64,000 nucleotides of DNA, taken from contig JAUCEF010000014.1 of NCBI GenBank assembly GCA_033558025.1, forward strand, positions 2,480,001 to 2,544,000. The letters are read 5' to 3'. A program made the position numbers and the translations under genes. Below, one piece after another: positions 16,441-60,918 of the stretch. The notes under the pieces were generated by a model, which saw only the letters and a list, made by a program, of their open reading frames with translations, made no database searches and was not told where the DNA came from. Source of the stretch: Phytophthora sp. 'mugwort' (Eukaryota; Oomycota; Peronosporomycetes; Peronosporales; Peronosporaceae). The first letter of the stretch is position 1. Every line of letters begins with the position of its first letter.

Positions 16441-17339
16441 TATTATCGTTGCAACATAACTTCTTTTAGACTAGTCAGTTGGCTTAACCTGCAAACTTGC
16501 GCGATATATACCGTGCGAAACGTCGACTTGTGTTGATGGCCCTCAAAGACGGCGCTGACCCGCAACCGACACGATAACAGCGGCAGAAGAGGGAATTAGC
16601 ACCACCCATTACGTCGGTCTCTCTGTTCATTGCAAGCACAAAAAGTCCGCAAATGGCATGGTAATCGGGGAATCCGTTTTATTGGCCACGAAAATGATAA
16701 AAAGTACATAGTAGCAGTATCGTGGTAGCCAATATAAACTACGCTTGTTCCAGAACGCAGTATAGTGCTAGCAAATAATATGCTGCTTGTTTCAGAACTC
16801 TTTCTCCACTTAGACCAGGGCCTTACGTTTGGCACGCTTACACCCAGATGTATTTGGGTTTGCCGTTATGACAAGGAAATGCCGGTTTTGTGTTCCATCC
16901 ACTCTTCCATCTCGACTATCTATCTCCTCAAAAGCAGCACCCACGTTTTTAACAAGCACGTCAGCGCCTTAGATCAGCTTGTTGTACTGCAACGACTGCA
17001 GTGAGTTAACCCCCCCAATACCCGCGCTGATTTCCCCAACTTTCCAAAAACTAAACATGTTGTTCGAGAAACATCTTAAGGACGATGCAACACTTGAATT
17101 TGGTATTGTCTGTCCTAAGTACGCGAGCCTGGTTCTGGAAAAGTAGTCGCGGCGGTCTGCTCTCCTTGTACGTCGCCCGTATCCTCAGTTTTGCTCTCCT
17201 CCTCAAGCGCTCCCTCCCCTCTTCTGGCACGTTGCCTTATGCAGCACGCTTGTGGGTGCGGCGCTGGCGCTTCTTCTTCTGCCTCCACCCCTCACGGCCC
17301 GCCACTGGCGATTTACTTCGATAAGAACGATTATCGACT
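16441..17339. other. no gene recognised
   Basis: This lies between the mariner relic and the endogenous virus. It holds no domain I can name and no terminal repeat matching the other Polinton copy, so the left boundary of copy A is not defined. Confidence 0.3.
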
Positions 17340-19329
17340 AACATATATTTCTGGTATCACCCCAGGAGTTGCAACACAATGTGTAGCCCTTGTTCCAGGT
17401 ACTAAGAATGATATCAATAGTATTGGGACACTATTTTGTGTAAGCTTGATAATAGATGGATCCATCGTGTCGTTCCTCCTGCATACACTCTCGGCATCAC
17501 CCCAGGTACTGCCACTCCGGGTAAAGCACTCGTGCTGGATGGATCTGGATCTATCGGAATAATTACTTCGCTGGCAGCTACTTCGCTGACCGGTACGCTC
17601 CAGACGGCGGCTCAGCCTAATATCACATCGCTTGGATCATTATCTGCTTTGACTATTGCAGACAATCTATCTTTTAGTGTCGCTTCACGGGCTTTGACCG
17701 GTCTATCAACGATCAGTTCTACGTCAATAACAGGCACTCTAGCCACTTTCTCTCAGCCGAATATAACTGTCATTGGCGCATTGGGCTCGCTCACCATCAG
17801 TAGCAGTTTAACACTAGCTACGACTAGTGATCGGCGAGGCAGAAATAGCGGTCCTCGATGGAGTAACCAAAGGCTTTGCGGGAGCCAATAAACCTCTTGT
17901 CTTAAGCGCCCGCAGTAATATTACTGGTATTAATGCACTGTCTGCACCATCTCTTAGTGGTACCCTTCAAACAGCGACTCAATCCAACGTCACAAGCGTC
18001 GGTACTCTATCCGGATTATCAATCGGTGACTCTCTAACAATATCCGGTTCATCACGAGTACTCTATATTACTGGAGCATCCTTGTATATCGATTCGTCAT
18101 CGTACAGATTCAGTGGAGTAGCTATCGATCTGAGCGTGTTGAACGGGGGCTAAAGGCGTTCTCACGTCAATTATAGCTCTGACCTTCGATTCATTTAATG
18201 TGATCCGCGTTCCACTTGGTGTAGCTGGGTCAGGTTGTATCTCGTTTTACGGGAATACGCCAAACAAGGAAATAGTAAATCTCGTTCGTGATTCTGACAA
18301 TGAGGGGTCACCATCGGGACCCGAGCATCTACTATTCAGAAATGCAGTCCACTACTTCACCTTGTGAGTGGGTACGATCAATCGGGAGTAGTTGGCACAA
18401 GATCTGCTGAATACAAAGAGGTTATTCGTGCAGAGCACAAGCTCGTTGGCTTTGCTACTAATTATCAATCCGGTTGGTTCCACGGCTATCTATTAGGATC
18501 ACAGACATGGGCGGGAATGGCGGAACTCAATTTGACAGTAGCTCTCCAGCTCTCATTATCGTATCAGGATCTTCGAACGACGAGCGCTTTCGCATCATCA
18601 AACAATCTGTTACTTCTTAATGATGGGAGAGCATGCCTAAATACTACAACTCCATCGGGTTCATACCAGCTGACCCTAAATGGTTCAAGTACATATAATG
18701 GAGCCTACATCGCCGTTGGATCTACTGTGCTCCACCTATATAACAATATATCACCATCCATTAGTAGGATAAGCATCCTACTCGATGGTACTAATTTTCC
18801 AAGGTGGGATATATCAAATTGGCGGAACAGATCATAGCAGCGCAATAGTAATGGAGCAGCAAGGATGATACTAACTTCTACTGGACGCCTCGGAATTGGT
18901 TCTACGAGCCCTTCGAGTTATTTGCACGTTACATCTTCAAATTCGTTCACTTTTGGTATGGGCGGTAGTACTGTATATCGACTCAGAACTGACAACGGTG
19001 TTACAGAAGCGCTCTCGGTCCGGTCATTAACAGCGTCTCTACTGTCTTCTCGGGTTACATTTCGTGCCAAACGATGGCAATGACCTCTGATCGACGAATC
19101 AAGCGAAATATTCAAAATTCTCCTCTCGATCGCATCAGGAGTCTCTACGACAAACGTTGATGTAGTTTTGTATGATTGGATTGAGTCTGAAAATCACCCA
19201 GCGCGGGAGGTAGAGTTGTTAGCTCAAGATCTTGTTTCGGCTAAATTTACAGATTTACCAGTGTCTTCTATCGAGACGATATCGAGGAGGGAGAAGATCC
19301 GTCGCTCGAGCCAGCAGAGCACCAGTTGA
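17340..19329 (+). pseudogene. tail-fibre-like protein with C-terminal peptidase S74 chaperone
   Basis: The N-terminal and middle parts consist of repeated units such as LTGTLQTAAQPNITSLGSLS and LSGTLQTATQSNVTSVGTLS (17530-18080), preceded by ITPGTATPGKALVLDGSGSI. This is a beta-helical repeat style seen in fibres of large DNA viruses. A module with LGIGSTSPSSYLHV lies at about 18890-18930. The C-terminus shows the S74 signature SDRRIKRNI (19086-19112) and, one frame over, VVLYDWIESENHPAREVELL with LLAQDL (about 19165-19240). S74 domains trimerise fibres and then cleave themselves off. At least five frame changes (near 17830, 18150, 18360, 18840, 19160) make it a pseudogene. It faces the rest of the viral genes convergently. 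Confidence 0.78.
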
Positions 19330-19503
19330 ACGTTGACTACAGCAGGATTGCAGTATATAACATGAAGATGATTTTAACACCTCGTTGAGATCGAAAAAAT
19401 AAAAAAAATCGTCTAGTTAATATATAATCATGGGCTGTAGACCGAGTAAGGAGCTTAAAACGAATGTAACTACGGATGATCCAAAGCAAATGTGGGGTCG
19501 ACC

Positions 19504-19671
19504 ATGCGACACGCTGACAAAACCATTGTTCTTGGGGATAGCATTTTTCTCCACACACAGAGTCCTGATGGGGAGTCTGCAATACTTGAGATCAGTATAA
19601 GCGACAAAAATATACTAACATCTATCGAGGGTATCGAAATAGACTCGTGCGGAATGGTCTTGTTTAGATAG
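19504..19671 (+). CDS. short fibre-associated ORF, 55 residues
   Basis: This plus-strand frame runs from ATG 19504 to TAG at 19669-19671. Its start, MRHADKTIVLGDSIFLHTQ, and the rest resemble the strand-rich modules of the preceding fibre gene (KTIVLGDSI, ESAILEISIS). It could be a remnant of a second fibre or of a longer structural protein. It may not be a functional gene. Confidence 0.4.
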   Translation: MRHADKTIVLGDSIFLHTQSPDGESAILEISISDKNILTSIEGIEIDSCGMVLFR

Positions 19672-19724
19672 CGACATGCGGGGCGTGAGGTCGCTGACCC
19701 GCGAGGCTTACAGCTTAAACGTCT

Positions 19725-20700
19725 TCACAGTTTTTTTTTCTTTGGTTGGTAAGCCCACATGCGTCCTCCTTCAGTCGGAGTCGATACGTCCACCTTCTTG
19801 TTAGTTTTATCTAAATCTGTTACTTTAACAGCTGCCTGTGTCTTCTGAGGTCGATCATGGATAATTAGATTCTTCATGATAGCTTTTAACTCAGCAACGT
19901 TGAGATCAGAGTTATCGCCAAAGCTACCAGCTGAGCTCGAAATGATGCGGAGATTAAAGAAGAACATGCTTGATTTATAGTAGGCGCGATATAATTTCCT
20001 TAAACTCTTTATCATCAATCAATCGATTGCTGTAGATATCCACAGTGAGCGATTTCAGCTGTCTGATGATGTTTGGACTATTGTTTATTAAGTCAAGCTC
20101 GCCCTTTAGCTTATCATACTCAGCTCGAGGATCTCAAGGGGGTCCGTGAGCTTGTCGTGGAGATTATACTGGATATGCAGTATGGCAAAGAATCTCCTTA
20201 AACATTTTTTTGTCGACGATACTGAGCTTATCGCAAGCAGCTTGGTCAATGTGCTGCTTATACACAAGGGTCCTAGTTTGGAGAATATCGCTGATATTGC
20301 ATTTAGGTCCGCACTTCCTTCGATTTGGTTGTACAATCACGAGTGTCTTTGCATCCAGATCAGGTAGACGTATGTACTTGCTACCAACCTGACGATATAT
20401 GTACGCGCGTGGAGTTGCTAAGCCCTGGATCTCATTTAGATTGTAAGAACGACCCCGTCGGACTACTCCATCGAGTGGAGCTACACCCGCGGCTCTTAGG
20501 CCACATCCCTCTAATTTAGGGAGAGCGTCAGAATATCGCGTAGCTTTAGAATTATATACTGACTTCGTAGCTCTCATCGCTGATTGAGCGGCCTTCAGAG
20601 CTGATTTTGAGTTTGAACCTCTCACAGCGTCCTTAGCGGCTTCATATCGCTTCTGAGCCTCGCCATATGGTTGGAAAGCTGCCTCGGCACTTTGACGTTA
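19725..20700 (-). pseudogene. unnamed Polinton gene (helical)
   Basis: Pieces in several minus-strand frames can be read in order from right to left. They run from SAMRATKSVYNSKATRYSDA and YIYRQVGSKYIRLPDLDAKT, through YKQHIDQAACDKLSIVDKKM and HDKLTDPLEILELS, to NIIRQLKSLTVDIYSNRL and a Lys-rich tail ending in KKKKL. The pattern is helical and charged. It lies at the far end of the minus-strand viral gene block, converging on the fibre gene. I do not recognise a named family. The position would suit a structural or virion-associated protein. Confidence 0.5.
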
Positions 20701-20860
20701 GATGTCTTGAACGCTACCTATGATAGCTATATTTAGAATCTTAAGATTTTTATCAAGGCTTGCTCGCCTTTGTTTATTAAGTTCCTTCTCCTTCACCAGC
20801 TTGGCTGCTTCTCATCACTTGATGGAAGTTGGTATTCAATGCTGGAAAGGTACGATTTAA

Positions 20861-21629
20861 TTATTCAAAGTAGTTCAATAACGATGTGATGAAAGTATCC
20901 ATCCACTGGATGGTCTTCATGAGAACAGTTACTTGCTTATTGTTTCTATCTCGGATATTTAATGGACGAGTGGGTGCTGGTTCACCGAAACAATAATCCG
21001 AATGAGGTTTTAACCCATTTTTTGTATCAACAATCAGCTTTACGCGAAATGGGATAGCAACACGTTCGCTCGCCAACTGACTGTAATAATCTGTTAGCGT
21101 CGTTGTCGGTGTTAGTCAGCGTGGTTCCATATCGACATCGACATTGCTGATTACTCCATATCGGGCTTCCACCTCACCTGGTGTGAAATCCTTCGCTACC
21201 TTTGTCTCATCCTGTTCACCTATTAATATCAGATCACGTCCTCTGGCGTTGGTCATATTTACAACGATTGGAATGTGATTGCCCAATTGACTCTCTTAGT
21301 GATAGCAGGCTTCGTACGATTACTATCTTTACCAAATACACTAATGGAATTACCATCAATCCATATATATCCATTTACATCAGCAGAAAATGTTTTATTC
21401 GCCCCAACGAGAATTGGAATACTTTTCTTTCTGAACCCCTTAGCTCAAGCACCTCCTTATTTCTGCTAATGGTCCAGAATAGTTTAATCTTGCTGTCAGT
21501 CTGGTCAGACGTTGTGGATGTTGGCTTATCGAAAAAAAAGCTATCATCAAGTCTTTGCTTCGTGCGATCGACGTCATCCCCTCCCGAAAAAAATTGAATC
21601 GTTTTCGCTTCGATCCAATAAGTTGCCAT
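20861..21629 (-). pseudogene. unnamed Polinton gene, possible structural protein
   Basis: It starts at ATG 21629 with MATYWIEAKTIQFFSGGDDV and runs to about residue 84. It then continues in other frames (WIDGNSISVFGKDSN about 21310-21360; KVAKDFTPGEVEARYG about 21165-21215; VAIPFRVKLIVDTKNGLKP about 21005-21065) to a stop near 20861. The mixed strand-rich content and its place beside the fibre gene suggest a capsid or penton role, but I cannot match it to one. At least three frameshifts. Confidence 0.45.
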
Positions 21630-21788
21630 ATTTGATAGGGGATCGGCTTATCTTCTTACCCCATTTCACGGAGTACTTCCTTTTCAGTTAGGTATGCGAG
21701 GAAGCAAACATCTCCAGTCAAAACTTCTCTGATATGATCGTACGTCTCAGACCAATCGATATTTGATGCTAAATATACTCAATTTATT

Positions 21789-22200
21789 TTAATGCTGTAT
21801 GTCTTCGCATCTTTTCAATTGCTGACGACCGTTGGAAGCAAGAGGGTGAATATGTAAGTCTGCAAGAATCGGATAAACCTCAATTGTTTGAGCAGCTGCT
21901 GTCTTAACTTTCTTTTGATCATCATCTCCTTCATTGAATAAATCCTTTTCCGCCAAGTTTTCCGCTACTTCAATCTGTGTTCCAATACATGTAGTCTTAG
22001 GACGAATCTGAACTTTTTTATTAGTCGTACGCACTCCGTTTGTATTAGTTTCACCATCTATTGAAACAGGGTGAGGTTCACTGTTTGTTTCAACGGTTGA
22101 TACCTCAGGGTTTGTCTGGGAGGATTCATTACTTACCGTTTTTTTTAAGGCCTCAGAAGACTCGGTTGTCGAGTCTGCTGAGTTGATTCAGTTGATTCTT
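21789..22200 (-). pseudogene. acidic Ser/Thr-rich viral ORF
   Basis: The clearest part is the 81-residue frame 21789-22034. Reading back upstream gives further Ser/Glu/Thr-rich sequence (SNESSQTNPEVSTVETNSE) in the same gene. The composition is low-complexity and probably disordered. No family recognised. Confidence 0.4.
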
Positions 22201-22446
22201 CGCTACAGTAGTTATGCCATTCCAAATCTCAGTGGCTCATGACGCACCTTTGCCGAACACGACGCTGAGCTTTCTCAAGAATCTCCTGTCATTCTGCTCT
22301 CTCTCTGAGCAAGGGATGTGAAATTGGGGAACATTGTGAGTCTATATATCATTCTAATCATAAACAATGAGTGGAAAATACTATCACCAGTAGCTCGGTA
22401 TAACTGAATCGTGGTGAAACGATGCGTACGAATGGCATATATGCTT

Positions 22447-22674
22447 TCATTCATTTAGTAGGTTGAAATATCGATCCTTGATGCAAGGAAATGGGACGCC
22501 AAAAATGATTTCCAATTCTCGCTGGTATTTACAATTGACAACTGTTTTACGAAAGTTTGCTGTTGCATCAAGCTTCAATAACTCCTTTTTAATGCGGCTC
22601 ACTTCCTGAATGATCCATAGCTTTCGACGAAGTTTAACAAGCTCACGTTCTTTTTCTAAACAATTCGGACACAT
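22447..22674 (-). CDS. small conserved-looking viral ORF with CPNC start
   Basis: 75 residues beginning MCPNCLEKERELVKLRRKLW. The CxxC at the start suggests half of a zinc-binding motif, followed by a coiled-coil-like helix. It is intact and lies directly downstream of the integrase on the same strand. Function unknown. Confidence 0.4.
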   Translation of the reverse strand: MCPNCLEKERELVKLRRKLWIIQEVSRIKKELLKLDATANFRKTVVNCKYQRELEIIFGVPFPCIKDRYFNLLNE

Positions 22675-22773
22675 ATTTTGGGTTGGTTTCTATATATCAA
22701 GTCAGATATAAAAATTTGATGTTTCATTTGTTGTGGCGGACGAAACCAACACCGGAGCCGCTATGCGAGCTCT

Positions 22774-23395
22774 TTAAATTCCAGTACTCAATCTGAAGGG
22801 TAGATCGCTTGTTTTGTTGATCGATCGGAGATTATCTTGTGATTCCCAGGATAGATCGCCATATACAATCCAATTGACAAGATAATTGTATTTACCTGAT
22901 TGCTGTTTCTTATGGTCTATAATCTTCTCAACCTCGAATATTTGTTTATTCGTAATCTTTGCATTCGTTGTCGCGTCATTGACCAATTTCATATCATTTG
23001 GTGCCCTGTAGAGTGTATGTCCATTCTTAGATTAAATTTGAACACGATAGCCATCGATGCCAACTATTTCATATATACCCTTGCTCCATCTCGCCGATTC
23101 CTTTTCAAATTGCGTCTTCTTCAAACGATATAACACAGAAGCTCCAATTTAAGCCGATTCTCAAGATTATCCATAGCGTTGTTGCTATGATCTAATTCAG
23201 ATTCAATAACCTGTCCAGATGCTTCATTCGTTGTAATTTTGATAGAAGTGTGCTTTGTATTGTTATAGCTGTCGATGACATCGCTTAGTAGCTTGCGCAT
23301 TAGTGGTTGCTTCATCAATTTCGACTTAAGCGTACGGTTAAATCGTTCAACCTTGCCCATCATTCCGTGATCACCCGGTTCGTTGTTGTAGTGAG
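22774..23395 (-). pseudogene. Polinton integrase, C-terminal half with chromodomain (copy A)
   Basis: The minus strand from about 23395 down reads GKVERFNRTLKSKLMKQPL, which holds the third catalytic acid (Glu). Then come a DVIDSYNNTKHTSIK block and, in the next frame (22774-22992), a chromodomain (EVEKIIDHKKQQSGKYNYLV, then WESQDNL). Chromodomain-bearing integrases are typical of Polintons and chromoviral gypsy elements. The N-terminal catalytic part lies next to it but on the opposite strand (see 23401-23826). The frame is broken near 23130. Confidence 0.8.
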
Positions 23396-23400
23396 TGGTG

Positions 23401-23826
23401 GACGAGCTACTATTTAGGCTCTATCATGATCCTAAAACAGGGTATATTGGCAGCAACGCTCTGTATCAGAAGGCTAAAACAATTGAAAAATCTATTCGTC
23501 TAAAGGATGTTAAGGTGTGGTATGCCAAGCAGACTGATATCTAACGCTACAACGGCAAAGCAACTCGATTTGATGGTTTTAAGATTGCTTCAAGCAAACC
23601 CAATAGTTGGCAGACAGATTGAGCATTTTGGAAAGGAAAGACTATTCTAACGGATATCAATAACAACACCAGAATTGGATTTGCTAAGATATTAGCGGAC
23701 AAGCGTTGGCAAAGTGTCTCTAAGGGTATTAAATCTCTTGAATCACTTAAAGTTGATATTTTAACTACCGACAATGGCTCTGAGTTCATGAATACGTATG
23801 CCCAAGCCTATTTCAAAAGCAAATCC
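23401..23826 (+). pseudogene. Polinton integrase core, inverted segment (copy A)
   Basis: This plus-strand segment encodes the N-terminal part and core of the same integrase: GYIGSNALYQKAKTIEKSI, then RIGFAKILADKRWQ and LTTDNGSEFMN with the second catalytic Asp. Two in-frame stops are present. In copy B the same sequence is on the minus strand, continuous with the C-terminal half. So in copy A exactly this block is flipped. Confidence 0.78.
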
Positions 23827-23939
23827 AAAGACAAGCGGAAAAATAGACTGTGCTTTTTTTGTGGATCACAAATTCAACGACGAGTAAAATCAAAGCTTAA
23901 GCATCGACGCTGGCTTATCGATCAACAAGCTTAAAGATC

Positions 23940-24618
23940 AGCTAAATTGATTACTTCATTAAAGTTATATCGTAGTTGACTTTTCACGCTGTCTACAAGT
24001 AAGATTTGACCTTTGCTTCGTGATATTGCTTTATTATAGGCAATCATTATTTTTTTGCGTCTATGCCATTCATATTGAAATCACGGACAATCATTTGCAA
24101 GTCCCTTTTACTATTTGCTCGTAGAATAGCAACAATTTACTGTTCAATCGTATCATATTACTAGTTGAAAACTAGCTGTGGCTTAGGAATATGGTACTCA
24201 ACTTGAAGTGTCTTCCACGAGTATAATAGTGGGAAAAGATATTCTTCTGGAGTAGGTTATCGTACTGTAATCGTCTATGATAACAAGCTCAGGTTTATTT
24301 GAACTTAGTGGTGTACGACGCACTTAATCAACGCTCGGAGGCGTATCTGGATCAGTGAAATATAATGAAATTTTCAAGCTTGTCGCGAAGGTACTCATAC
24401 AGTTCTTGGTGGGGATTGCGAGCAATAATCATTAAATGGGTGAATACGTGGGGTGCATGTTTGAGAATGAAAAAGCATAGGTTGTTTTTTCCACTGAAAG
24501 AGGGTCCAAGGACAATCATTTTAGATAGCTTTTTAATGTCAAGCGAAGTGATATCGCCCATACGAGCTGTCGTGTAGTTCTTACCCAATGAAGCAGCGAA
24601 ATCTGGAATAGCGTTCAT
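23940..24618 (-). pseudogene. FtsK/HerA-type DNA-packaging ATPase (copy A)
   Basis: It starts at ATG 24618. Residues 34-43 carry a Walker A-like GPSFSGKNNL (usual form GPSxSGKTxL). After a frame change, PELVIIDDYS (about 24263-24292) is the Walker B motif. Then come a GRHFKLSTIFLSHSYF block (about 24165-24220) and a C-terminal region with LRANSKRDLQMIVRDFNM. The length of about 225 residues suits Polinton/adenovirus-like packaging ATPases, which pump DNA into capsids. The threonine that coordinates magnesium has become asparagine, and several frameshifts confirm decay. Copy B lacks this gene entirely. Confidence 0.75.
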
Positions 24619-24668
24619 GGTCGTGTCTCTTAATCGCTGGATCTATATATATTGAGATAAAACAAACA

Positions 24669-24827
24669 TGAGTTCTGTTTTCTCATATCCTCAACTAATA
24701 TTCATATCACCGATCGACAATCCTGCATTCTATCTAACGTTGGATGCCAGCAGCTATCTGACCTATGAGTATACCCAGACGTGGTCTATAGAAACCAAAA
24801 ACAAATATGCAATGCGTTCCCCCTAAA
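24669..24827 (+). other. short plus-strand ORF between ATPase and polymerase
   Basis: 53 residues starting MSSVFSYPQLIFISPIDNPA, intact and on the strand opposite its neighbours. It has no recognisable domain and could be the N-terminal stub of a lost viral gene. Confidence 0.3.
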
Positions 24828-24889
24828 TATCGACGGAATTGTAGAAATACCATCATCTAAAACCTCACGCGTGTCGTACCAATAGTTAA

Positions 24890-27800
24890 GGGCAGTCTTT
24901 ATTGACTGTATGTAATGATTGGTTTAGTCTCTTTACTAATGCGGAAACCCTTGTTAGTTCTTCTGAGAGTTACACGATCGCGAACAACAGACTCGAAGTT
25001 CTCAGGCGATAGTATCATTGTTCTTGTTCTTTTGAATACCCTTTGCGGACAGCTTGAAATATTCGACTTTCCCATTAACAAGTCTTTCATAATCTTTCTT
25101 GACTTTGTGTTCTTCATCTGGGATATAGCAAATGTAGTTCTTGCTGGATAGTGCTACAATCGCATCACCTCGCCACTCTTCCTTGAATAGACCAGGAGTG
25201 AATGTATCATAGATGGACACTTCCTTGTTATAGTCTCGCGGAAACCATTCATACTTGTGTTGCTTGAAGTGGTCTTGAAGCTCAGGCTTGATACATTCGC
25301 GGAAAGGATTATCACAGCTGAAAGCGATATACGCTGGGTCGGTGTCCATCTCCTGATATTGAAAATTGCTGCGATCGAAGTAGCAAAAACGATGCAATCG
25401 TAATAGAATTGGAGCATTCGCAGCTTAGCAAGCTCATAGATGGCAATCGATTGATGAATCGGATTCTTAATCTTGATGAGGCGCTTCTTCATGGTAATCT
25501 CACATGAACCATTTAGCTCCTCCAACGAATGAAACATGAAAGGTTCGATCGTTTCCTCAATAGCTGTCTCTTCAGACTCATATTTAATCATCTTATGTTT
25601 GCTCATATCCATGCCGGAACGACCAAACGCAGAGTTGCCAACGAGCTTCATCATCATTCCAACCATTTCCTTGTTCTCATCGGCATTACCGTCGCGTCGT
25701 GCTTGAGATACCTTTTCCATGATGGCTTAAATTCTTTGTGAGCACTCGCCTTGATGAAGATGTAGGTCTTAGTAATTTCCATCCCATGCGAGAGGTACCA
25801 CTTAAGGTGTGGAGCAGAGATAAGAATCTTTTCACCAAAGTAGCTACCGATAAGCTTGCGAGCGGGCTTCACAGCATTTTTACCGCGTGTCTGGTTGTAC
25901 TCATACATATGTGAGCCAATGATCTTCTCATCAGTACAATCAATTTCATTTTTTTTGAAAATAGGAGTCATTTCGCTAAAGTACTCTTCAAGTGGCCTGG
26001 AGTTCGAATGTCGCATTCAAGAAAACCAAAGATCTTGTCATTGACTATGTCATCAATACCATTATATGATTCAATTGTAGTCAAACGACCGCAAGGCAAA
26101 TCATTACCCAGAGACCAGAGATAGATAGCATTAGCGTCATACCCAATGACTTCTTTCACAAGCTTGTCGCCGCGAATAAGAGTTTCATTGCGTTTGGCGT
26201 AGCGGTTAAAGATAATCGACGGCCCGCCGGAAATATTGTCCTTCATTCTGCGGTAGATCTCTTTATCCGCTAAATCAATTGAATATACTAACTGATCGGA
26301 GTTGAAATCATAAAGTTTCTTTTTTCGAAATCCACCGATGGACATATCTTTACGATCCACATTGCACTCGATGCAGCTAATCATAATGTTGCATTGATAT
26401 GACCTTTGGAGTTATTAATTCTATTAGGACGCGGTTTCAGCAGTTAGAGGACAATAGCATAAAGCGCAAAGATACTTCTGCCTATCTAATAATGTATTTA
26501 GATGACCAATCGTCATATCATATTGACGTTTCGCTTCAGCGTCTTGAGCCTTGTACCTCTTCATTCGTTTCTCAGGAAATCCAAATCTGGAGCGACTATT
26601 CTCGGTTGCTTCCTGAGGTTTTCGTGGCATGACTGATACATGACTTTTCCGAGAGCCCCGGAAGCGAGACACCATCAGTGAACGTGTCGAGATCAAAACG
26701 CTTAAACAATTCTCGCTGAGATTGGATAGCTTTGATGAATGGCACAACATCCAGATCAGCGGATCCTTAATACTCTTCATCTCATAGTACTCCCAAACGA
26801 ACTTGACGCGTTCATAGTCTTCGTTAGTAGCGATTGTCCCGCGAAGATCGCTGTTGAAAGCCTTCTTAGGTGGGATTTTAGTCTCGTTAAGTACATTAAA
26901 TGAAGTTATGTACTCATAAGGAAATATCTCCTTAGCAAGGCCACAAGTGCATTTGCTCTTGTCATCACACTTGCACCCACCGAGGTAAGTAGTGAGATAA
27001 CTTTCCAGAGATGTACCTTGTGGGACATAATTCATAATATCAAGCATCTTGAAGTCGTCAGTTGCGATGCACCCATAACTGGGATTGTTGATAACGGATT
27101 TGATGTTGTCGGTCCCGATTACTGAGAATAGATCTTTCTCAATTAGATTGACGTCATAGCTTCCAGAGTTGAATCCAAGAACAGGTACTTGATCAAGGAT
27201 ACGTTTGATTTTATTGTATGATATCAAAGGTTTTGATATAAGCATGCGCATCGGAGAATGATTGGTACTCTTCTTCCTTGATTTCATCATCAATAGATGA
27301 GAGTGTACCCTTCTCCTCCTCATGCATTAAAATGCTTCTGATTATGATCTCGTACTTCGACACATTGTATCGCTGAATGATCTTAGCTGTGTTGCTAATA
27401 TACTCGAACATATCCTTTAGCAATGCACGCGGATCGTTACTAATGAAACATTCAACACGATTAGTTAAGCTACCTGATATCAAAACGCTAACGTGGATGT
27501 GCTCATTTACATAGAGAGTTCTTTCTCCGTGGCTAATCTATGTTGGCTTGAGAAGGATTCAAATCATAGACAATGAAATGATCGAGGTAATCATCCACAT
27601 ACTTTAGCGAGTATCGTTGGAGCAACTTCTATCATATTCTCAGGAGGAAATTAGATGCTTGGTAGCTTTGGGAACGACACAATATTGACTTCATCGCATC
27701 TGTTCTTAGAGTGGTTTCGTAACTTTTCACTCGTCTTGAAGATCATATTTTACCTTTCTGACACTCATACTTGCTCTGAAACATTTCCATGTACTTGATG

Positions 27801-28279
27801 TAGAGAGCATGATTCTCACACGATAGGATGTTGATTCGGTCATAGCTCTTCTCTGAGGAACGAATGAACTCAACATTTCCGGTTTCCACATTCTTCGTAT
27901 ATACGTTGATATTGAGCTGGAAGCATTCCTCGAGCTCATCGAATTGCCAAATGTCAATTGGCTTTAAGTTGCGAAAAAGACTTAGCGTGTCGCTAATACT
28001 TTTGTATGAACAATTCCGCTTGACGGTATCCTCTAGAAGGGATTGAATCTTGCGAGGATCTTTATCGCGATTGGAATGAAAAGCAATGCAATGGAAAACG
28101 CATTTATTGTTTATCTTCGGAAAGTTGATAACATGCTTGTTATTGAGTATGACTTTAGGGATAACAGCTTCGCTATCACCGAGAACGTGGTTGCGAAAGT
28201 AGATTAATAGCTTGAACCCAATGACACCCAAGCGTGTGTATCTAGATAAGGGGTACGGGAGCTTGTTTGCTAACTCCAT
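24890..28279 (-). pseudogene. protein-primed DNA polymerase B (copy A)
   Basis: It starts at ATG 28279. The N-terminal region has the NNKCVFHCIAFH and FQLNINVYTK pattern of Polinton polymerases. The exonuclease domain shows GFNSGSYDVNLIEK (about 27120-27180) and a Cys-rich insert CKCDDKSKCTCG. The palm shows GYDANAIYLWSLGNDLP (about 26100-26150), KLVGNSAFGRSG (about 25615-25650) and the catalytic motif C block, here DTDPAY (about 25331-25348). The usual sequence is DTDSxY and copy B has DTDSAY. At least six frame changes split it. Protein-primed PolB replicates linear genomes with terminal proteins, which agrees with the inverted terminal repeats seen in copy B. Confidence 0.85.
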
Positions 28280-28628
28280 TGTTTAATAGGAGTTAACACC
28301 TTCTTTCGGATATCACCCTTAGTATTAATCGCAATTGGAGAGTCGAAGACCATTGTGTTGCCAACATTTGGATACCAATAACGAACATCACTTTCATCGG
28401 CAATATTGATTAAGCCGTATCCAAGCGCAATGTTTACCTTACGCGATTTCCCCTGACTTTCAAGTACAAGTTCCAGCTTGTCATAAAAACGCTCCTGCTG
28501 GGATATTCTCATAGAGATGGGTCTCCATGTGGTGCCTTTATAGAATCGATACTTCGGGTCAGCCTTATAATCGGATGAAAGATGCTTGTTGAGATCTTCA
28601 ATCGATTTCTTGTACTGCTTGACAACTA
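28270..28628 (-). pseudogene. small Polinton gene upstream of polymerase (copy A, truncated)
   Basis: This is the same gene as 59441-59869 in copy B. It contains YDKLELVLESQGKSRKVNIA and GNTMVFDSPIAIN and ends just over the polymerase start. The N-terminus is cut at about 28628, where similarity to copy B stops and gypsy sequence begins. Function unknown. Confidence 0.6.
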
Positions 28629-28639
28629 GATTGCATCAT

Positions 28640-51650: not shown

Positions 51651-51890
51651 GGGTCGTCGTGGGGCGCGTGGCCAAATAGACGGAGGTGCTGAAGGATAGC
51701 AGTGGCTCGGCAGGAGGTAACGATGTAGTGTGCAAGTACAGATGACCTCCTCCTCGACAATCCGTTTCGAAATTTGATTCAAGCGAGTCAATACAAAATG
51801 CAAGTGCTTTGACGGCGGCCAATGGGAGACCGGGCCGTTCATGCGATGTTGCATTTCGATTCTAACGTTATCGACGTAGCGATTTACCAA

Positions 51891-53095: not shown

Positions 53096-53571
53096 AAAGC
53101 TTTGCCGTGGCATGGCAAGTAGCGATTGGTTAAATATTAGTTTACCTCAAAATCATGAGACAAGATTATGTGGAGAAGCGTCAACCAAGAATATCAGATC
53201 CGCAAGATATGGCCAGGTCGGTGAGAAAGGCGACCCCAGCTGTGAAAGGAGGGGCGATCGAGCCGGATCAAGATGTGAGATAAAGGCGGGGCGACGTTCG
53301 ACTTAATCCGGGGTGTGAGGGGATGCTTTGGAGACTGGAAAGGAAACCAGGGTCGGGCCCACCACCTAACACAGATCTGTTATATTGTGATCACCCGACC
53401 AATCGGGGATCGGATGGATATTCGAAGCCTGGATTGGGGGAATGCAAGAGATCAGGACTGGTCAGCGACGACGGACTCGATCTAACCGGACCTAACTCCA
53501 AGCTTGACCTCGGTCGGACCCAGATCGTGCTGATCCGGCGCCCGTGGGCTGGGTTACATTCGGTTGATTGC
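53096..53571 (+). repeat. GATC-rich LTR-like repeat, left piece
   Basis: This DNA separates the hAT breakpoint (GTCTT at 53091-53095) from the left end of Polinton copy B. It is dense in GATC, GGATCC-like and GATCGG words. It continues at 60919-62089 on the other side of the Polinton. Confidence 0.5.
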
Positions 53572-53870
53572 AGTAATGGTTTACAGTACACAATCGGGGC
53601 TGTTTTTTATAATTCCATCTGGATGTACTAAAACAATGTTTAACCCATGAATTAGCTAAGGGATAAAACCCTATATAATTAGGCAGCCCCTGTCGACGCC
53701 AATATGCAAAGGGACATATTTGTTGTTCTCAAAAGTCCTGATAGTGAAATATGTAAAGGTGCATCATGTTGTGAATATAAAGAATCAATATTTTGCCTAT
53801 ATGGATTTATCCAACTATCAGGATAAAAGAAACATAAAGACGTTCCATCCAGATAGATAAATATAAGGTA
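53572..53870. repeat. left terminal inverted repeat of copy B
   Basis: About 299 bp matching the reverse complement of 60616-60918 with few mismatches and small indels. Shared blocks include CGGGGCTGTTTTTTATAATT, GGATAAAACCCTATATAA and TTTGCCTATATGGATTTATC. Confidence 0.92.
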
Positions 53871-53888
53871 CAAAATATAATGAAATGA

Positions 53889-54284
53889 TTCATATATAAG
53901 ATTTCGAACAAAGACGATTCTATCGTCTTCATTGGGAGCTGAACCAAACCACAACAGTTATACTGAAATGATGCTAGAGGTAGTTACACCGCATGGTTAA
54001 GAATTGTCAAGTCGTTTCGTACAATTTATGAACATTTTAAAAACGGTGGGGTCGATAGTTTTGATATAAAATTGATCAGCGGATATGAGATTACAAAAAG
54101 TATCGATATCTATGAGCATAAGCAAGTGACTATAAAAAATACCAAATGCATAAACAACCGTGAGCATCATTTCGAATTGGGGAAGAGTAGCTCAATAACC
54201 TCCCAGAAAAGTGCGACCCGAGAAGAAAGAATCAATGTGAATGCGGCTCCATATATAGTCGATACATTAAGGGTAAGCATTTAA
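53889..54284 (+). pseudogene. GIY-YIG endonuclease-like relic
   Basis: The plus-strand frame begins FIYKISNKDDSIVFIGS, which fits the GIY-YIG start (x-I-Y-K-I then Y/F-I-G-S). Two stops follow. It then runs RTIYEHFKNGGVDSFDIKLI, SGYEITKSIDIYEHKQVTIK and NTKCINNRE, which fits the end of the domain (acidic residue in YEH, then the KCINK-type ending). GIY-YIG nucleases are common cargo in Polinton-like viruses. The catalytic acid position is tentative. Confidence 0.5.
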
Positions 54285-54474
54285 TGACAAAGAAGCACCA
54301 AAATTATCTAACTCGAAGTGATTAAGCTAACAATGCTCAATTTCATGATATTTTATGAATTTCAGAAATATATTACGAATTTCACAGGAGTCCTCTGAAT
54401 TTCATAATTATATTATATTTTCTCAAAAACAATAAGGCCTATATATATAGATACACCCAACTGATAGCATGTAG

Positions 54475-54775
54475 AGCGAATCAACTTTTGGAAAATACAA
54501 GGGCACCAAGATCGAAGAAGTATATCCTTCTGATCCTGGTTATTGTCGATGGGTATTTAGCCAACCCAGTTTAGATATTACCGAGCATATCAAGATTTTC
54601 CTCCACTCCAAGTTTCTTAACGACGATACTCGTATATGATGACTTGGGCAAATATCGCGGCAAGACTCTCAAGCAGATCAGTCGAATAAATCCCAATTAC
54701 ATTGATTGGCTTCGTAAGAGTCAATTCGTAATTGAAAAATGTCCTAATCTTTTAGCAGAATTAAAACTAAACTAA
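54475..54775 (+). pseudogene. ExoX-C-like double-module gene
   Basis: The first unit reads STFGKYKGTKIEEVYPSDPG followed by YCRWVFSQP. After a frame change near 54637 a second unit reads LGKYRGKTLKQISRINPNYI and DWLRKSQF, ending in TAA. FGKYKGK...DPxYxxWL is the signature of the small domain found at the C-terminus of exodeoxyribonuclease X-like proteins and in many DNA-virus proteins. It probably binds nucleic acid or assists a nuclease. Confidence 0.6.
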
Positions 54776-54822
54776 ACGTCATATTTTTTTATCTCATAAC
54801 CTGAGCACCAAAAACTACTCTA

Positions 54823-55345
54823 TTAAGCTGTGGTGAAATCTATTACTTCCCCAGTTAGTCTATCCAAAGTCAGCTTCTGTTCGCTAACCACAATCACGAT
54901 CTTGTTGGTACCTTGGCAACCCGCGTTTACATCGTGGATCTGAATCGATTGGGGTACATCACGCTCTGTGAGACGAATCACATCGGCAATGAGGACGCAA
55001 TTTGTTAGCGACCAAGTCTGATAGTCCGTAAGTCCATTCACCAGCTCAGGAGTTAGATCACCGTTAATCGCTGAAATGTTGGCCACCTTCTTAGTAAAGT
55101 GATGGAAGTCATAGTCATGACTGATATTAAAGGCCTGCTGGGAACCGATACGAACATCAAAGTTGCGGATACTCGAACCAGGGTGACGAGTCCAAGGAGC
55201 TGAATCAAACGGACTCTGAAGCTCCTGAACAGCAGTAGAAGCAAAATTGCCAGTCTGCTCGGCGAAAGGAAGGAGAATAACATATTTAGGATTCTTAGTA
55301 GAAGCCGGTAATTGTAGATCGAAAGCAGCATTGTTTGAGTCGATT
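54823..55345 (-). pseudogene. double-jelly-roll major capsid protein, C-terminal fragment
   Basis: The minus-strand frame is open from about 55345 to the stop at 54823, about 170 residues. It contains KYVILLPFAEQTGNFASTAV, LQSPFDSAPWTRHPG, a strand block IRNFDVRIGSQQAFNI, then HFTKKVANISAINGDLT, LANCVLIADVIRLT-type strands, and PQSIQIHDVNA with IVIVVSEQKLTLDRLTGEVI. The QSPFDSAP and ExxLxLDxLTGEVI-like ending are the pattern I associate with the second jelly-roll of Polinton major capsid proteins, which form the virion shell. The N-terminal half is deleted. The cut lies at the hairpin at 55344-55381. Confidence 0.65.
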
Positions 55346-55381
55346 GCTTTCCTACAGCAGCGAGCTGGTGTAGGAAAGCAA
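55344..55381. repeat. perfect 13-bp hairpin at a deletion junction
   Basis: TTGCTTTCCTACA (55344-55356) is inverted exactly as TGTAGGAAAGCAA (55369-55381) around a 12-base loop. It sits where the capsid fragment meets the integrase 3' flank. In copy A the same integrase flank is followed by different sequence. Confidence 0.8.
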
Positions 55382-55421
55382 CAACACCGGAGCCGCTATG
55401 CGAGCTCTTTGATTTCCAGTA

Positions 55422-56409
55422 CTAAGTCTCAAGGGTAGATCGCTTGTTTTTGTTGATCAATCGGAGATTATCTTGTGGTTCCCAGGATAGATCGTAATAG
55501 CCAATCCATTTGACGAGATATTTGTATTTACCTGATTGCTGTTTCTTATGGTCCATAATCTTCTCAACCTCGAATATTTGTTTATTCGTAATCTTTGCAT
55601 TCGTTATCGCGTCATTGACCAATTTCATATCATTTGGTGCCTTGTAGAGTGTATGGCCATTCTTAGATCTAATTTGAACTCGATAGTCATCGATCCTTCA
55701 AACGATATAGCACAGTAGCTCCAATTTTAAGCCGATTCTCAAGCTTATCCATAGCGTTGTTGTTATGATCCAATTCAAATTCAATGACCTGTCCAGATGC
55801 TTCATTCGGTGTCATTTTGATAGAAGTGTGCTTAGTATTGTTATAGCTGTCGATGACATCGCTTAGTAGCTTGATCGTTAGTGGTTGCTTTATCTTTATC
55901 AATCTCGACTCAAGCGTACGCTTAAATCGTTCAACCTTGCCCATCCTTCCGTGATCACCCGATTCGTTACTGTAGTGAGTGATAGATTTGCTTTGAAATA
56001 GGCTTGGACATTCCTATTCATGAACTCAGAGCCATTGTCGGTAATTAAAATATCAACTTTAAGTGATCAAAACATTTAATACCCTTAGAAACGCTACTCC
56101 AACGCTTGTCCTCTAATATCTTAGCAAATCCAATTCTGGAGTTGATATTGATAGCCGTTAGAATCGCCTTTCCTTTCCAAAATGCTAAATCTGCCTGCCA
56201 ACTATTGGGATTGCTTGAAGTAATCTTAAAATCATCAGATCGAGTTGCTTTGCCGTTGTAGCGTCGGATATGAGTCTGCTTGGCATACCACTCCTTAACA
56301 TCCTTCAGACGAATAGATTTTTCAATTTCTTAGCCTTCTGATACAGAGCATTGCTGCCGATATACCCTGTTTTAGAATCATGATAAAGCTTCAATAGTAG
56401 CTCGTTCAT
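55422..56409 (-). pseudogene. Polinton integrase with chromodomain (copy B)
   Basis: It starts at ATG 56409 with MNELLLKLYHDSKTGYIGSN. The DDE core shows WQADLAFWKGKAILT (first Asp, about 56165-56210), LITDNGSEFMN (second Asp, about 56020-56050) and GKVERFKRTLES (Glu, about 55905-55944). The chromodomain EVEKIMDHKKQQSGKYKYLV and WIGYYDLSWEPQDN ends at 55422. Unlike copy A, all parts are colinear on the minus strand. Frame changes occur near 56320, 56065 and 55690; the last coincides with a 60-bp deletion relative to copy A. Confidence 0.85.
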
Positions 56410-56519
56410 GGTCTATATTAGAAACAAAACAAATATGCAAAGCGTTCCCCATAAACATCGAGCGGAATTGTAGAAATATCATCATCTAAAACCTTACGCT
56501 TGTCGTACCAATAGTTAAG

Positions 56520-59440
56520 GGCAGTCTTTGCTTGACTGTATGTAGTGATTGATTTAGTCTTTTACTAATGCTGAAACCCTTGATAGTTCCTCTGAGAGTT
56601 ATCCGACCGCGAACAACAGACTGAAGTTCTCAGGCGATAGTAAATCATTGATCTTGTTCTTTTGAATACCCTTTCAGACAGCTTGAAATATTCGACTTTC
56701 CCATTAACAAGTCTTTCATCTTTCTTGACCTTGTGTTCTTCCTCTGGGATATAGCAAATGTAATTCTTGCTGGATAGTGCTACTATCGCCTCGACTCGCC
56801 ATTCTTCCTTGAATAGGCCAGGCGTGAATGTATCATAGATGGACATTTCTTGTTATCGTCTCGCGGAAACCATTCATACTTGTGTGGCTTGAAGTGGTCT
56901 TGAAGCTCACGTTTGATAAACTCGCGGAAAGGATTATCACAGCTGAAAGCAATATACGCTGAGTCAGTGTCCATCTCCTGATATTGAAAATCGCTGCGAT
57001 CGAAGTAGAAATCGATGCAATCGTAGTAGAATTGGAGCATTCGGAGCTTAGCAAACTTGATAAATGGCAATCGGTAGATAAATCGGATTCTTACTCTTGT
57101 TGAAGCGCTTCTTCATGGAATCTCACATGAACCATTTAGCTCCTCCAACGAATGAAACGTGAAATGTTCGATCTTTTTCTCAATAGCTGTCTCTTCAGAC
57201 GTATATTTAATCATCTTATGTTTGCTCATATCCATGCCGGAACGACCAAACGCAGAGTTGCCAACGAGCTTCATCATCATTCCAACCATTTCCTTGTTCT
57301 CATCGGCATTACCGTCGCGTCGTGCTTGAGATACCTTTTCCATGATGGCTTAAATTCTTTGTGAGCACTCGCCTTGATGAAGATGTAGGTCTTAGTAATT
57401 TCCATCCCATGCGAGAGGTACCACTTAAGGTGTGGAGCAGTGATAAGAATCTTTTCACCAAAGTAGCTACCGATAAGCTTGCGAGCGGGCTTCACAGCAT
57501 TTTTACCGCGTGTCTGGTTGTACTCATACATATGTGAGCCAATGATCTTCTCATCAGTACAATCAATTTCATTTTTTTTGAAAATAGGAGTCATTTCGCT
57601 GAAGTACTCTTTCAAGTGGTCTGGAGTTCGAATGTCGCATTCGAGAAAACCAGAGATCTTGCCATTGATTATGTCATCAATGATACAATTGTAGTCAAAC
57701 GACCGCAAGGCATATCATTACCCAGAGCCCAGAGATAAAGAGCATTAGCGTCATACCCAATGACTTTTTTCACAAGCTTGTCGCCGCGAATAAGAGTTTC
57801 ATTGCGTTTGGCGTAGCGGTTAAAGATAATCGACGGCCCGCCGGAAATATTGTCCTTCATTCTGCGGTAGATCTCTTTCTCCGTTAAATCAATTGAATAT
57901 ACTAACTGATCGGAGTTGAAATCATGAAGTTTTTTTTTCCGAAATCCACCGATGAACATATCTTTACGAGCCGCATTGCACGCGATACAGCTAATCATAA
58001 TGTTGCCATCGATATGACCTTTGGAGTTATTAATTCTATCAGCTGACGTGTTGAATACATCAAATAAAGTCATGTACTCATAAGGGAATATCCCTTAGCA
58101 AGGCCACAAGTGCATTTGCTCTTGTCATCACACTTGCACCCACCGAGGTAAGTAGTGAGATAACTTTCCAGAGATGTACCTTGTGGGACATAATTCATAA
58201 TATCAAGCATCTTGAAGTCGTCAGTTGCGATGCACCCATAACTGGGATTGTTGATAACGGATTTGATGTTGTCGGTCCCGATTACTGAGAATAGATCTTT
58301 CTCAATTAGATTGACGTCATAGCTTCCAGAGTTGAATCCAAGAACAGGTACTTGATCAAGGATACGTTTGATTTTATTGTATGATTCATTATCTCTGATA
58401 TCAAAGTTTTTGATATTAGCATGCGCATCATAGAATGATTGGTACTCTCCTTCCTTGATTTCATCATCAATAGATGAGAGTGTACCCTTTTCCTCCTCAC
58501 GCATTAAAATGCTTCTGAGTAAGATCTCATACTTCGACACATTGTATCGCTGAATGATCTTAGCTGTATTGTTAATATACTCGAACATATCCTTTAGCAA
58601 TGCACGCGGATCGTTATTAATGAAACATTCAACACGATTAGTTAAGCTATCTGATACGAAACGCTAACAAGGATGTGCTCATTTACATAGACAGTACTTT
58701 CTCCGTGGCCAATCTCTGTTGTCTTGAGGATGGATTCGAAATCACAGCCAATGGAATGATCGAGGTAGTTCTCCACATGCTTTAGCGAGTATCGTTGGAG
58801 CAACTTCTTAATCATGTTCTCAGGAGGAATGCAGATGCTTGGTAGCTTTTGAAACGACTCACTATTGACCTCATCGCATCTGTTCTTAGAGTGGTTTCGT
58901 AACTTTTCACTCGTCTTGAAGATTATATCACATTTCTGACACTGATACTTGTCTGAAACATTTCTATGTTCTTGATATAGAGAGCATGATTCACACGATA
59001 GGATGTTTCGGTCATAGCTCTTCTCTGAGGAACGATTGCACTCAAAATTTCTGGTTTCTACATCCTTCGTATATACGTTGATATTGAGCTGGAAGCATTC
59101 CTCGAGCTCATCGAATTGCCAAATGTCAATTGACTTTAAGTTGCGAAAAAGACTTAGCGTGTAGCTAATACGCTTGTATGAACATTACCGCTTAAAGGTA
59201 TCCTTTACAAGGGATTGAATCTTGCGAGGATCTTTACCGCGATTGGAATGAAAAGCAATGCAATGGAAAACGCATTTATTGTTGGTCTTCGGAAAGTTGA
59301 GAACATGCTTGTTATTGAGTATGACTTTAGGGATAACAGCTCCACTATCACCGAGAGCGTGGTTGCGAAAGTAGATTAATAGCTTGAACCCAATGATACC
59401 CAAAAGTGTATCCAGATGGGGGGTACGGGGAGCTTATTTG
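56520..59440 (-). pseudogene. protein-primed DNA polymerase B (copy B)
   Basis: It has the same layout as copy A: the NNKCVFHCIAFH N-terminal block (about 59250-59290), exonuclease GFNSGSYDVNLIEK (about 58300-58360), the Cys-rich CKCDDKSKCTCG, palm GYDANALYLWALGNDMP (about 57715-57765), KLVGNSAFGRSG and an intact DTDSAY (about 56957-56974). Frame changes occur near 58980, 58080, 57700, 57110 and 56840, so it is not functional. It keeps the catalytic motif that copy A has lost. Confidence 0.85.
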
Positions 59441-59869
59441 CTAACCTCCAATAGGAGTTATCACATTCTTTCGGATATCACCCTTAGTGTTAATCGCAAT
59501 TGGAGAGTCGAAGACCATTGTGTTGCCATCATTTGGATACCAATAACGAACATCACTTTTTTTATCGGCAATATTGATTAAGCCGTATCCAAGCGCAATG
59601 TTTACCTTATGAGCTTTCCCCTGACTTTCAAGTACAAGTTCCAGCTTGTCATAAAAAAACTCTCCTGCTGGGATATTCTCATAGAGATGGGTCTCCATGT
59701 AGTTGCCTTTATAGAATCGATACTTCGGGTCAGCCTTATAATCGGGTGAAAGATGCTTGTTGAGATCTTCAATCGATTTATTGTACTGCTTGACAATTAG
59801 TTTCTTATTTCTTGGATGAGATGGGTTTCCAATATAAACCACCTTACCTATGCGTCCTCGCAACTTCAC
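59441..59869 (-). CDS. small conserved Polinton protein, 142 residues
   Basis: The intact frame starts MKLRGRIGKVVYIGNPSHP and contains YDKLELVLESQGKAHKVNIA, YWYPNDGNTMVFDSPIAIN and KGDIRKNVI. It directly precedes the polymerase, and a truncated homolog precedes the polymerase in copy A. No family recognised. A role in replication, for example as a terminal or priming protein, is only suggested by position. Confidence 0.55.
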   Translation of the reverse strand: MKLRGRIGKVVYIGNPSHPRNKKLIVKQYNKSIEDLNKHLSPDYKADPKYRFYKGNYMETHLYENIPAGEFFYDKLELVLESQGKAHKVNIALGYGLINIADKKSDVRYWYPNDGNTMVFDSPIAINTKGDIRKNVITPIGG

Positions 59870-60055
59870 TCAATAGTTTTTTCCTCATTTAACGTATGGA
59901 ATATCCAATCGCCTAAGTCCTTTAACTTCGTACGGCAACATGCTTGCTATATATCGGTGGGTATATTTCGGCTGGTGTAAAAGGCTTTTTATTAGTTATA
60001 CTTTGCTTAAGATAGAACTTTATATTCTTGGGAAATACACAAAAAAAGATTTGAA

Positions 60056-60253
60056 TTAATTCCATTCTGTTTTCTCGTTTGCTTTAAATAGTTTGCGCTT
60101 CTCCCTACGTCGAGTATTAATATGTTCTCTATGGGCTGTATCGTACGCTTTTTGCATAGCGATACGTGTTTCTCTCGTCTTGAGGTAATACCGCTTCTGG
60201 TTCGCTTTGAAGCGTTCCTTGTTAGCCTGGTATTTTTCAGGTGAATAGGTCAT
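60056..60253 (-). CDS. small basic protein, 65 residues
   Basis: An intact frame beginning MTYSPEKYQANKERFKANQK. It is Lys/Arg-rich and a single long helix, with RREKRKLFKANEK near the end. It could bind DNA. Similar short helical basic tails follow GIY-YIG domains in some mobile elements, so it may be a detached piece. Confidence 0.45.
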   Translation of the reverse strand: MTYSPEKYQANKERFKANQKRYYLKTRETRIAMQKAYDTAHREHINTRRREKRKLFKANEKTEWN

Positions 60254-60307
60254 TGTTATTTATATACTATAGAGGATTTTGTATCAGGATTAAAAAAAAA
60301 AGTTTGT

Positions 60308-60613
60308 TTATTTCTGATGTCCACGTTTGGGACACCGATACCTATATTTTTCTTTAGTCTTAAAGCAACAGCTTCTATCTAAAGTACACCAACTCCTATT
60401 ACATGAATCAAATACTTCTACATATCCAATTTCCTTGACATGACGAACACCACACCCACAAGCCCCTACCATGTTTTTAACGATGTCATACTCGGCCCGC
60501 CTCTGAAACCATGGTTGCTTCATCAACCACCTACAGTAAGCTCGATCTTTAAGCATTGCTTCGAGTGTTGAATAATTCGAGTTAAAAGTTAACTTATCCA
60601 TTGTTATGGTCAT
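60308..60613 (-). CDS. ExoX-C-like protein with Cys-rich tail
   Basis: 101 residues; the likely start is MDKLTFNSNYSTLEAMLK, since the ATG at 60613 lies four codons earlier. The segment LEAMLKDRAYCRWLMKQPWF matches the DPxYCRWL part of the ExoX-C-like module, followed by a tail with CGCG, CNRSWC, CCF and CPKRGH that could bind zinc. It is the first gene inside the right terminal repeat and partly overlaps nothing else. Intact. Confidence 0.6.
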   Translation of the reverse strand: MTITMDKLTFNSNYSTLEAMLKDRAYCRWLMKQPWFQRRAEYDIVKNMVGACGCGVRHVKEIGYVEVFDSCNRSWCTLDRSCCFKTKEKYRYRCPKRGHQK

Positions 60614-60615
60614 TA

Positions 60616-60918
60616 TACCTTTATATTTAGCTATCAGGATGGAACGTCTTTATGTTTCTTTTATCCTGATAGTTGGATAAATCCATATAGGCAAAATATT
60701 GATTCTTTATATTCACAACATGATGCACCTTTACATATTTCGCTATCAGGACCTTTTGAAAACAAAAAATATGTCCCTTTGCATATTGGCTACCGCCAGG
60801 GGCTGCCTAAATTATATAGGGTTTTATCCTTTTGCAAATTCAAGGGTTAAACATGGTTTTAGTACATCCAGATGGAATTATAAAAAACAGCCCCGATTTT
60901 GTACTGTAAACCACTACT
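60616..60918. repeat. right terminal inverted repeat of copy B
   Basis: About 303 bp, the inverted partner of 53572-53870. It ends GTACTGTAAACCACTACT at 60918, followed by the target duplication GATCGC. Confidence 0.92.

Follow-up and report, generated by a model that had tools for sequence, protein, structure and literature searches.

S74 fibre genes in the polintoviruses of a Phytophthora genome

The window analysed here (the whole stretch of 64,000 nucleotides of the Phytophthora genome) contains a polinton copy with a gene for a fibre that ends in a peptidase S74 domain. Across the genome, these Phytophthora polintoviruses carry the S74 fibre as a standard gene, with a fixed place and orientation. 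We consider it highly probable that the copy is a dead endogenous polintovirus, with PolB, an rve-chromodomain integrase, a packaging ATPase and a DJR capsid, whose virion carried a trimeric, phage-like receptor-binding fibre.

Two decayed polinton copies in the window

The first-pass annotation had described an endogenous polinton in an oomycete host, with PolB, packaging ATPase, integrase-chromodomain and S74 fibre in one block at 17340..28628. The block and all of its named parts were found, but homology to other copies (DNA alignment) spans 17309-28632, and we corrected the extent of this copy, copy 1, accordingly. The oomycete host is supported by a chloride channel gene at 48987-51908, whose product shares 88% identity with proteins of P. 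cactorum and P. nicotianae and places the host in Phytophthora or very near it. The features of copy 1 and of a second copy are as follows.

17309..19330, + strand: body of the fibre gene with its beta-rich repeats, the tip and the S74 domain, now spread by decay over several frames; 87-90% DNA identity to L064 and L054 (C1:4043000+)
19080..19233, + strand: S74 core, TSDRRIKRNI (from 19083, frame 1) and LAQDL (frame 2); three-frame reading
19725..22689, - strand: remnants of more polinton ORFs of no named family; collinear with L053 and L064, 84-88% DNA identity
22774..23420, - strand: integrase, rve part 23121-23420 and chromodomain 22774-23031; rve_3 and Chromo matches
23399..23825, + strand: inverted piece of integrase gene, 427 bp; inverted relative to copy 2 (91%), L054 and L064
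24127..24642, - strand: decayed gene for the packaging ATPase, facing away from the fibre start
24668..24781, + strand: N-terminal 38 residues of the fibre, MSSVFSYPQLIFISPIDNPAFYLTLDASSYLTYEYTQT; adjoins the ATPase, 5 kb beyond the fibre end
24782..28632, - strand: PolB (putatively protein-primed), broken, with an endonuclease VII/HNH-like segment; 89-93% DNA identity to other copies
53571..60919, - strand: copy 2, 7.35 kb, derived by internal deletion; contains PolB, integrase and a capsid protein remnant
53571..53873, + strand: left terminal inverted repeat of copy 2, 303 bp; arms 93.5% alike
54823..55395, - strand: C-terminal piece of a predicted DJR major capsid protein (MCP) in copy 2
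60613..60919, - strand: right terminal inverted repeat of copy 2, pairing with the left arm

Copy 1 is rearranged, end-truncated and dead. Its right end is at 28632, where other copies run on, its left end falls within the fibre gene, and within the window the family inverted repeat is absent from both ends. Nearly all window reading frames are broken, and decay is common among the copies. The fibre 5' end and the ATPase have been separated from the remaining fibre by rearrangement: in L064 (C1:2447000+) and L004 (C18:1869417+) the ATPase piece (window 23899-24781) ends immediately before the start of the fibre body (window 17309). In the window, that piece has the integrase on one side and PolB on the other, and the first 38 fibre residues have moved along with it. 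These residues are 79%, 82% and 63% identical to the fibre N-termini of three element families, A, B and C, respectively. Three pieces tried from the remnants at 19725..22689 had no match in Pfam.

Neither fibre nor ATPase was detected in copy 2. Its flanks, GATTGC and GATCGC, agree at five of six bases and are probably a 6-bp target duplication in which one base has changed. Terminal inverted repeats are present in further copies as well, and the left repeat of copy 2 has at least 40 matches genome-wide.

The fibre ends in an S74 domain

The SDRRIKRNI signature and the downstream LAQDL block, on which the S74 assignment had been based, are both present, though in two different frames. MTSDRRIKRNI begins at 19080 in one frame and LAQDL lies at 19219-19233 in the next, and the window fibre gene is therefore frameshifted. 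Five window fibre pieces had no Pfam match at E 0.1, and the window S74 is not among the genome matches described below; two of three window pieces tried against PHROGs had weak tail-fibre matches (E 8e-4 and 4e-5).

Relatives of the window gene gave stronger matches. Window 17839-19044 aligns with residues 74-486 of an intact relative's fibre (35% identity, E 3e-43), and window 17312-21392 aligns at 87% DNA identity with L064 across the S74 place C1:2451120, which scores 33.4 bits against PF13884 (cut-off 22). An intact 604-aa fibre at C5:5929289 matches PF13884 at E 2e-10 and also phage tail-fibre families in PHROGs (best E 1.2e-12). Throughout the assembly searched (86.3 Mb, 154 contigs) PF13884 is above cut-off at 101 places, including copies 87-90% identical to the window, while among 14 control genomes matches occurred in one, E. 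coli.

A profile built from 14 of the 70 public relatives found matched the phage long tail fibre 6f45 (E 1.6e-9), MYRF 7dc3 (4.5e-9) and the phage neck appendage 3gud (1.4e-5) in the PDB, and its shaft also matched the Bdellovibrio fibres 8ojn and 8ond; a PDB sequence search with a single fibre returned nothing. The S74 match, for which a profile check had been proposed, is thus borne out by the intact relative and the 14-relative profile. Relatives of the fibre and of the MCP occur on contigs without organism names, which we took as metagenomic. All 14 relatives have the Ser, Asp, Arg and Lys of SD-x-R-x-K, as well as the AQ pair, unchanged, and the window S74 retains TSD; the Ser-Asp pair is presumably the S74 self-cleavage site. 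In a low-confidence structure model of the fibre (mean pLDDT 51, unreadable beyond the C-terminal part) the first match was the intramolecular chaperone 3gw6 (E 5.8e-3, probability 0.97), and no structure match reached E 0.001.

The fibre is part of the element

At least 95 of the 101 S74 places are near a polinton ATPase, PolB or MCP. Among the matches listed, both PolB and MCP lie within 15 kb at 47 or more places, PolB alone at 22, MCP alone at 23 and neither at nine; when an ATPase within 6 kb is added, six places are left without a listed polinton neighbour. An ATPase lies within 6 kb of at least 75 places. Under random placement, the PolB-plus-MCP count had a mean of 1.9 and a maximum of 7 of 101 (2000 trials), and the ATPase count likewise a mean of 1.9 and a maximum of 7 (1000 trials); this null was run for these two counts and covered 76 Mb of the 86 Mb, up to the largest match coordinates. 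The S74 genes do not lie near polinton genes by chance.

The arrangement is also constant. Among the matches listed, 46 of the 47 cases with PolB and MCP both within 15 kb have the fibre between the two, although in an array on C12 the nearest PolB or MCP may be that of a neighbouring copy. Where both are near, the S74 gene of this genome thus almost always lies between the same polinton genes, as had been asked of it. Fibre and ATPase are divergent at 73 of the 75 places with a listed ATPase within 6 kb, and the strand of the fibre differs from that of MCP in 62 of 70 listed cases and from that of PolB in 61 of 69.

We defined an element as bounded when a pair of inverted repeats within 30 kb enclosed both PolB and MCP. 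Thirteen such elements were found (four of family A, eight of B and one of C), and S74 lies inside the repeats, not outside them, in ten of the 13 among the matches listed; the fibre therefore belongs to the same element, as the first-pass annotation had conditionally proposed. These ten are 16 to 24 kb long (shortest 16.1 kb), and in one of them, C8:2625026, the repeat matches cover only about 80 of 238 bases. In the bounded element C1:4033749 the orientation of the fibre-ATPase block with respect to PolB is reversed, so that fibre and PolB point in the same direction. S74 was undetected in three bounded elements, namely window copy 2, C3:542945-558416 and C17:660297-675472. The latter two are 15.4-15.8 kb, slightly under the shortest S74-holding element, and deletion is therefore not proven for them. 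Two small repeat pairs without PolB or MCP (C14:2850970 and C8:1196013) and a 52-kb pair on C2 fall outside the 13.

All these neighbour and element counts are lower bounds, since the matches in the genome exceed those listed and the repeat searches scored the best 40 of 75 and the best 40 of 143 candidates. With overlapping fragments merged, the counts draw on 131 of 155 matches for PolB, 137 of 153 for MCP and 121 of 153 for ATPase.

The array on C12 (C12:2339303-2503739) consists of polintons in three steps of about 26.4 kb, followed by inverted copies about 29.3 kb apart, and seven of its fibre C-terminal frames are identical. The near-constant spacing and the identical frames suggest recent tandem amplification. 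Separately, long open frames at L063:5168-7945 and 7870-8766, inside a 24-kb element (C1:2437161-2461399), look by eye like a retroelement inserted into the polinton.

The other polinton genes

The window integrase matches rve_3 at E 6e-5, under the curated cut-off, and Chromo at E 1.1e-6, above it; both rve and Chromo are above cut-off in the integrase of an intact relative. Window 24127-24630 matches the ATPase of an intact relative (E 1.5e-54), which is of the Pox_A32 type (Pfam, E 1e-6).

The window PolB matches DNA_pol_B_2 in Pfam at E 0.047, under cut-off, and contains the motif-like stretches DANAIYLW, LVGNSAFG and DTDPAY, which we take to be PolB motifs A, B and C. The intact PolB frames had no PolB match in Pfam or NCBIfam and no credible match in the PDB. 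The PolB label comes from the motif-like stretches and the sub-threshold Pfam match, and the polymerase would be of the protein-primed type. Within the PolB frame of two longer-framed relatives there is an endonuclease VII/HNH-like segment (phrog_1035, E 3e-7 and 6e-7), at residues 790-875 of L058:2215-6345 and residues 490-561 of L056:5260-8412.

MCP was not detected in copy 1; the piece in copy 2 has at least 153 matches in the genome. A medium-confidence model of a relative 74% identical to the intact C5 MCP (mean pLDDT 63, pTM 0.66) matches the mavirus MCP at E 8e-13, and the predicted fold resembles a mavirus-like DJR. A PDB sequence search with the MCP profile gave unrelated-looking matches only (haemoglobin, ribosomal S18 and others). 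Pfam and PHROGs did not recognise MCP, a putative penton protein or an ORF of at least 857 aa, and no capsid maturation protease was recognised among the ORFs examined.

Fibre modules

The fibres begin with a conserved peptide, MSxGFSYPQPxFxSxIYNxxFY, whose S-x-IY/IF-N motif recalls, as we understand it, the penton-binding tail of the adenovirus fibre. This anchor in family A is 74% identical to that of B and 51% to that of C, and over C residues 28-207 the fibres of families C and B share 44% identity. The tip (window 18304-18837) corresponds to family C residues 229-403 with 44% identity, and had no match at 1e-3 in the one family B fibre compared. The stretch just before S74 (window 18838-19083) is closer to B (49% identity) than to C (34%).

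MCP and PolB follow the anchor. The copy 2 MCP piece is 81% identical to that of a B element (C8:431759) and 59% to the intact MCP of C (C5:5934994), and the copy 2 PolB piece 62% to B and 42% to C. Family A thus resembles B in MCP, PolB and anchor, yet the tip is common to A and C. The tip (44 places from 87 rows, overlaps merged, as compared with 42 places from 76 rows for the anchor) is found within 3 kb of 27 of the 101 S74 places and not of the other 74, and 41 of the 44 tip places adjoin polinton genes. From these comparisons the fibre seems to be built of an anchor and an S74 release module that stay constant and a tip that can be exchanged. Phytophthora polintoviruses may vary their entry protein as phages do, with families exchanging the tip and one genome archiving several receptor-binding specificities; we put this forward tentatively, as somewhat short of probable. 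It is also possible that the tip was lost in family B and not exchanged. With this mosaic of anchor and tip, the attachment of a polintovirus to its host becomes open to tests on single proteins.

Proposed role of the fibre and alternative explanations

S74 proteins are classically receptor-binding fibres. In the mechanism that we propose, the fibre would be transcribed divergently from the packaging ATPase, and its N-terminal peptide may anchor it at the capsid vertex. A repetitive, beta-rich shaft and then the variable tip would follow the anchor. The C-terminal S74 domain would template trimerisation of the fibre and free itself by a cut between the Ser and the Asp of its Ser-Asp motif, and its release would leave a stable fibre for host attachment and receptor binding.

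The fibre shows signs of purifying selection. Six distinct C-terminal frames gave dN/dS values of 0.06-0.16 in five of 15 pairs, with nine of the others saturated at synonymous sites and one without a synonymous change. The sample is small and consists of open frames among the best-scoring loci: 17 of the 101 S74 places (L036-L052) yielded 12 open frames, of which these six were distinct. Capsid, ATPase and fibre frames are still open in several copies.

These data bear on three other explanations. S74 could be an oomycete host gene, or a chance neighbour beside the polinton and outside the virus. S74 proteins away from polintons do exist, such as an 888-aa EGF-like protein at C18:70030 and two S74 domains in a huge C18 frame, but the places without listed polinton neighbours number six of 101, three of them on C18, and order and orientation are conserved, with S74 inside the repeats in most bounded elements. 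We regard this explanation as extremely improbable, and rejected it on the strength of the inverted-repeat-bounded copies that hold S74. Quite unlikely, too, is that the elements are transposons of the self-synthesising kind, with the fibre as a passenger that has no use today. The broken frames of the window and the decay of many copies would fit such an origin, whereas the frames that remain open, the fibre dN/dS well under 1 and the related proteins on the contigs taken as metagenomic argue against it. A standard S74 fibre gene with signs of selection instead supports spread as particles, besides transposition.

A fibre borne on the virion might also serve something other than entry, either decorating the particle or, as a decoy, blocking a giant virus that competes with it, in the manner of host protection by virophage-like elements. 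Low dN/dS shows only that the fibre protein mattered, and some polinton-like viruses and virophages reportedly inhibit giant viruses (PMC12220804, accessible part; see also PMC12945077). Section 13 of PMC12220804, on the other hand, argues that S74 proteins are receptor-binding fibres, and a tip that changes while the anchor stays constant accords with receptor choice. We consider decoration or a decoy unlikely, and favour a receptor-binding fibre.

Relation to known elements

The first-pass annotation had implied that an S74 fibre in a polinton was new. This did not hold, since S74 fibres have already been reported in polinton-like viruses; the accessible part of PMC12220804 calls the genes "ubiquitous" in those of most eukaryotic host groups, and its survey includes Phytophthora elements. 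The new detail is the seeming exchange of tips on a common anchor. That survey aside, no dedicated paper on the oomycete S74 fibre itself was found in a literature that covered few subscription journals. The words S74, fiber, fibre and tail are absent from the main texts of PMC7805220 and PMC10120064, and S74 and fiber from PMC4028283 and PMC4642659.

Oomycetes carry many such elements, with up to 299 MCP copies per genome in the Gossevirus group (PMC10120064, accessible part). Complete oomycete elements are described in the part of PMC7805220 available to us, some with pPolB and RVE, and the P. infestans Polinton MCP is there assigned to Gossevirus. Our MCP query matched proteins of many Phytophthora, including P. 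infestans. The elements probably belong to the Gossevirus (GKS1) group, with which they share an oomycete host, inverted repeats, pPolB and RVE in some members and a virophage-like MCP fold.

Like the fibres of polinton-like viruses of cryptophytes, rhizarians and others, those described here have a C-terminal PF13884 domain on a long modular fibre; the shafts of the former often contain laminin G, collagen or phage-tail repeats (PMC12220804, accessible part), whereas no laminin G, collagen or phage-tail Pfam domains were found in the two fibre frames scanned here. Endosialidase-type chaperones (3gw6, 6f45 and 3gud) and MYRF 7dc3 share the SD-x-R-x-K motif, the AQ block and a C-terminal helix, but here the domain is borne by a capsid-forming eukaryotic virus and no endosialidase domain was recognised. 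In mavirus, a small relative of polintons with a DJR capsid, MV19 likewise contains an S74 peptidase, although mavirus is a virophage and the N-terminal part of MV19 is different, a putative glycosylase; its Polinton homologues match the N-terminal part only (PMC3671162, accessible part).

In IMG/VR, a single MCP, a single fibre and an MCP alignment found no relatives, and a fibre alignment matched at least 151 through the S74 motif. By tblastn (family C queries, 1e-4), no polinton genes were found in the best 80 of these S74 loci.

S74 proteins outside polintons

One protein of 888 aa combines an EGF-like with an S74 domain (S74 at C18:70030-70212; L062:2805-5468); it has no listed polinton genes nearby and looks like a host protein. 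Two further S74 domains on C18, at 1590971-1591156 and 1640723-1640908 (L060 and L061), lie in one frame of 41,472 aa on the minus strand. This frame spans about 124 kb, with tandem repeats of about 2.7 kb and no N in the L060 and L061 parts, and if it is not an assembly artefact it would encode an enormous S74-bearing protein.
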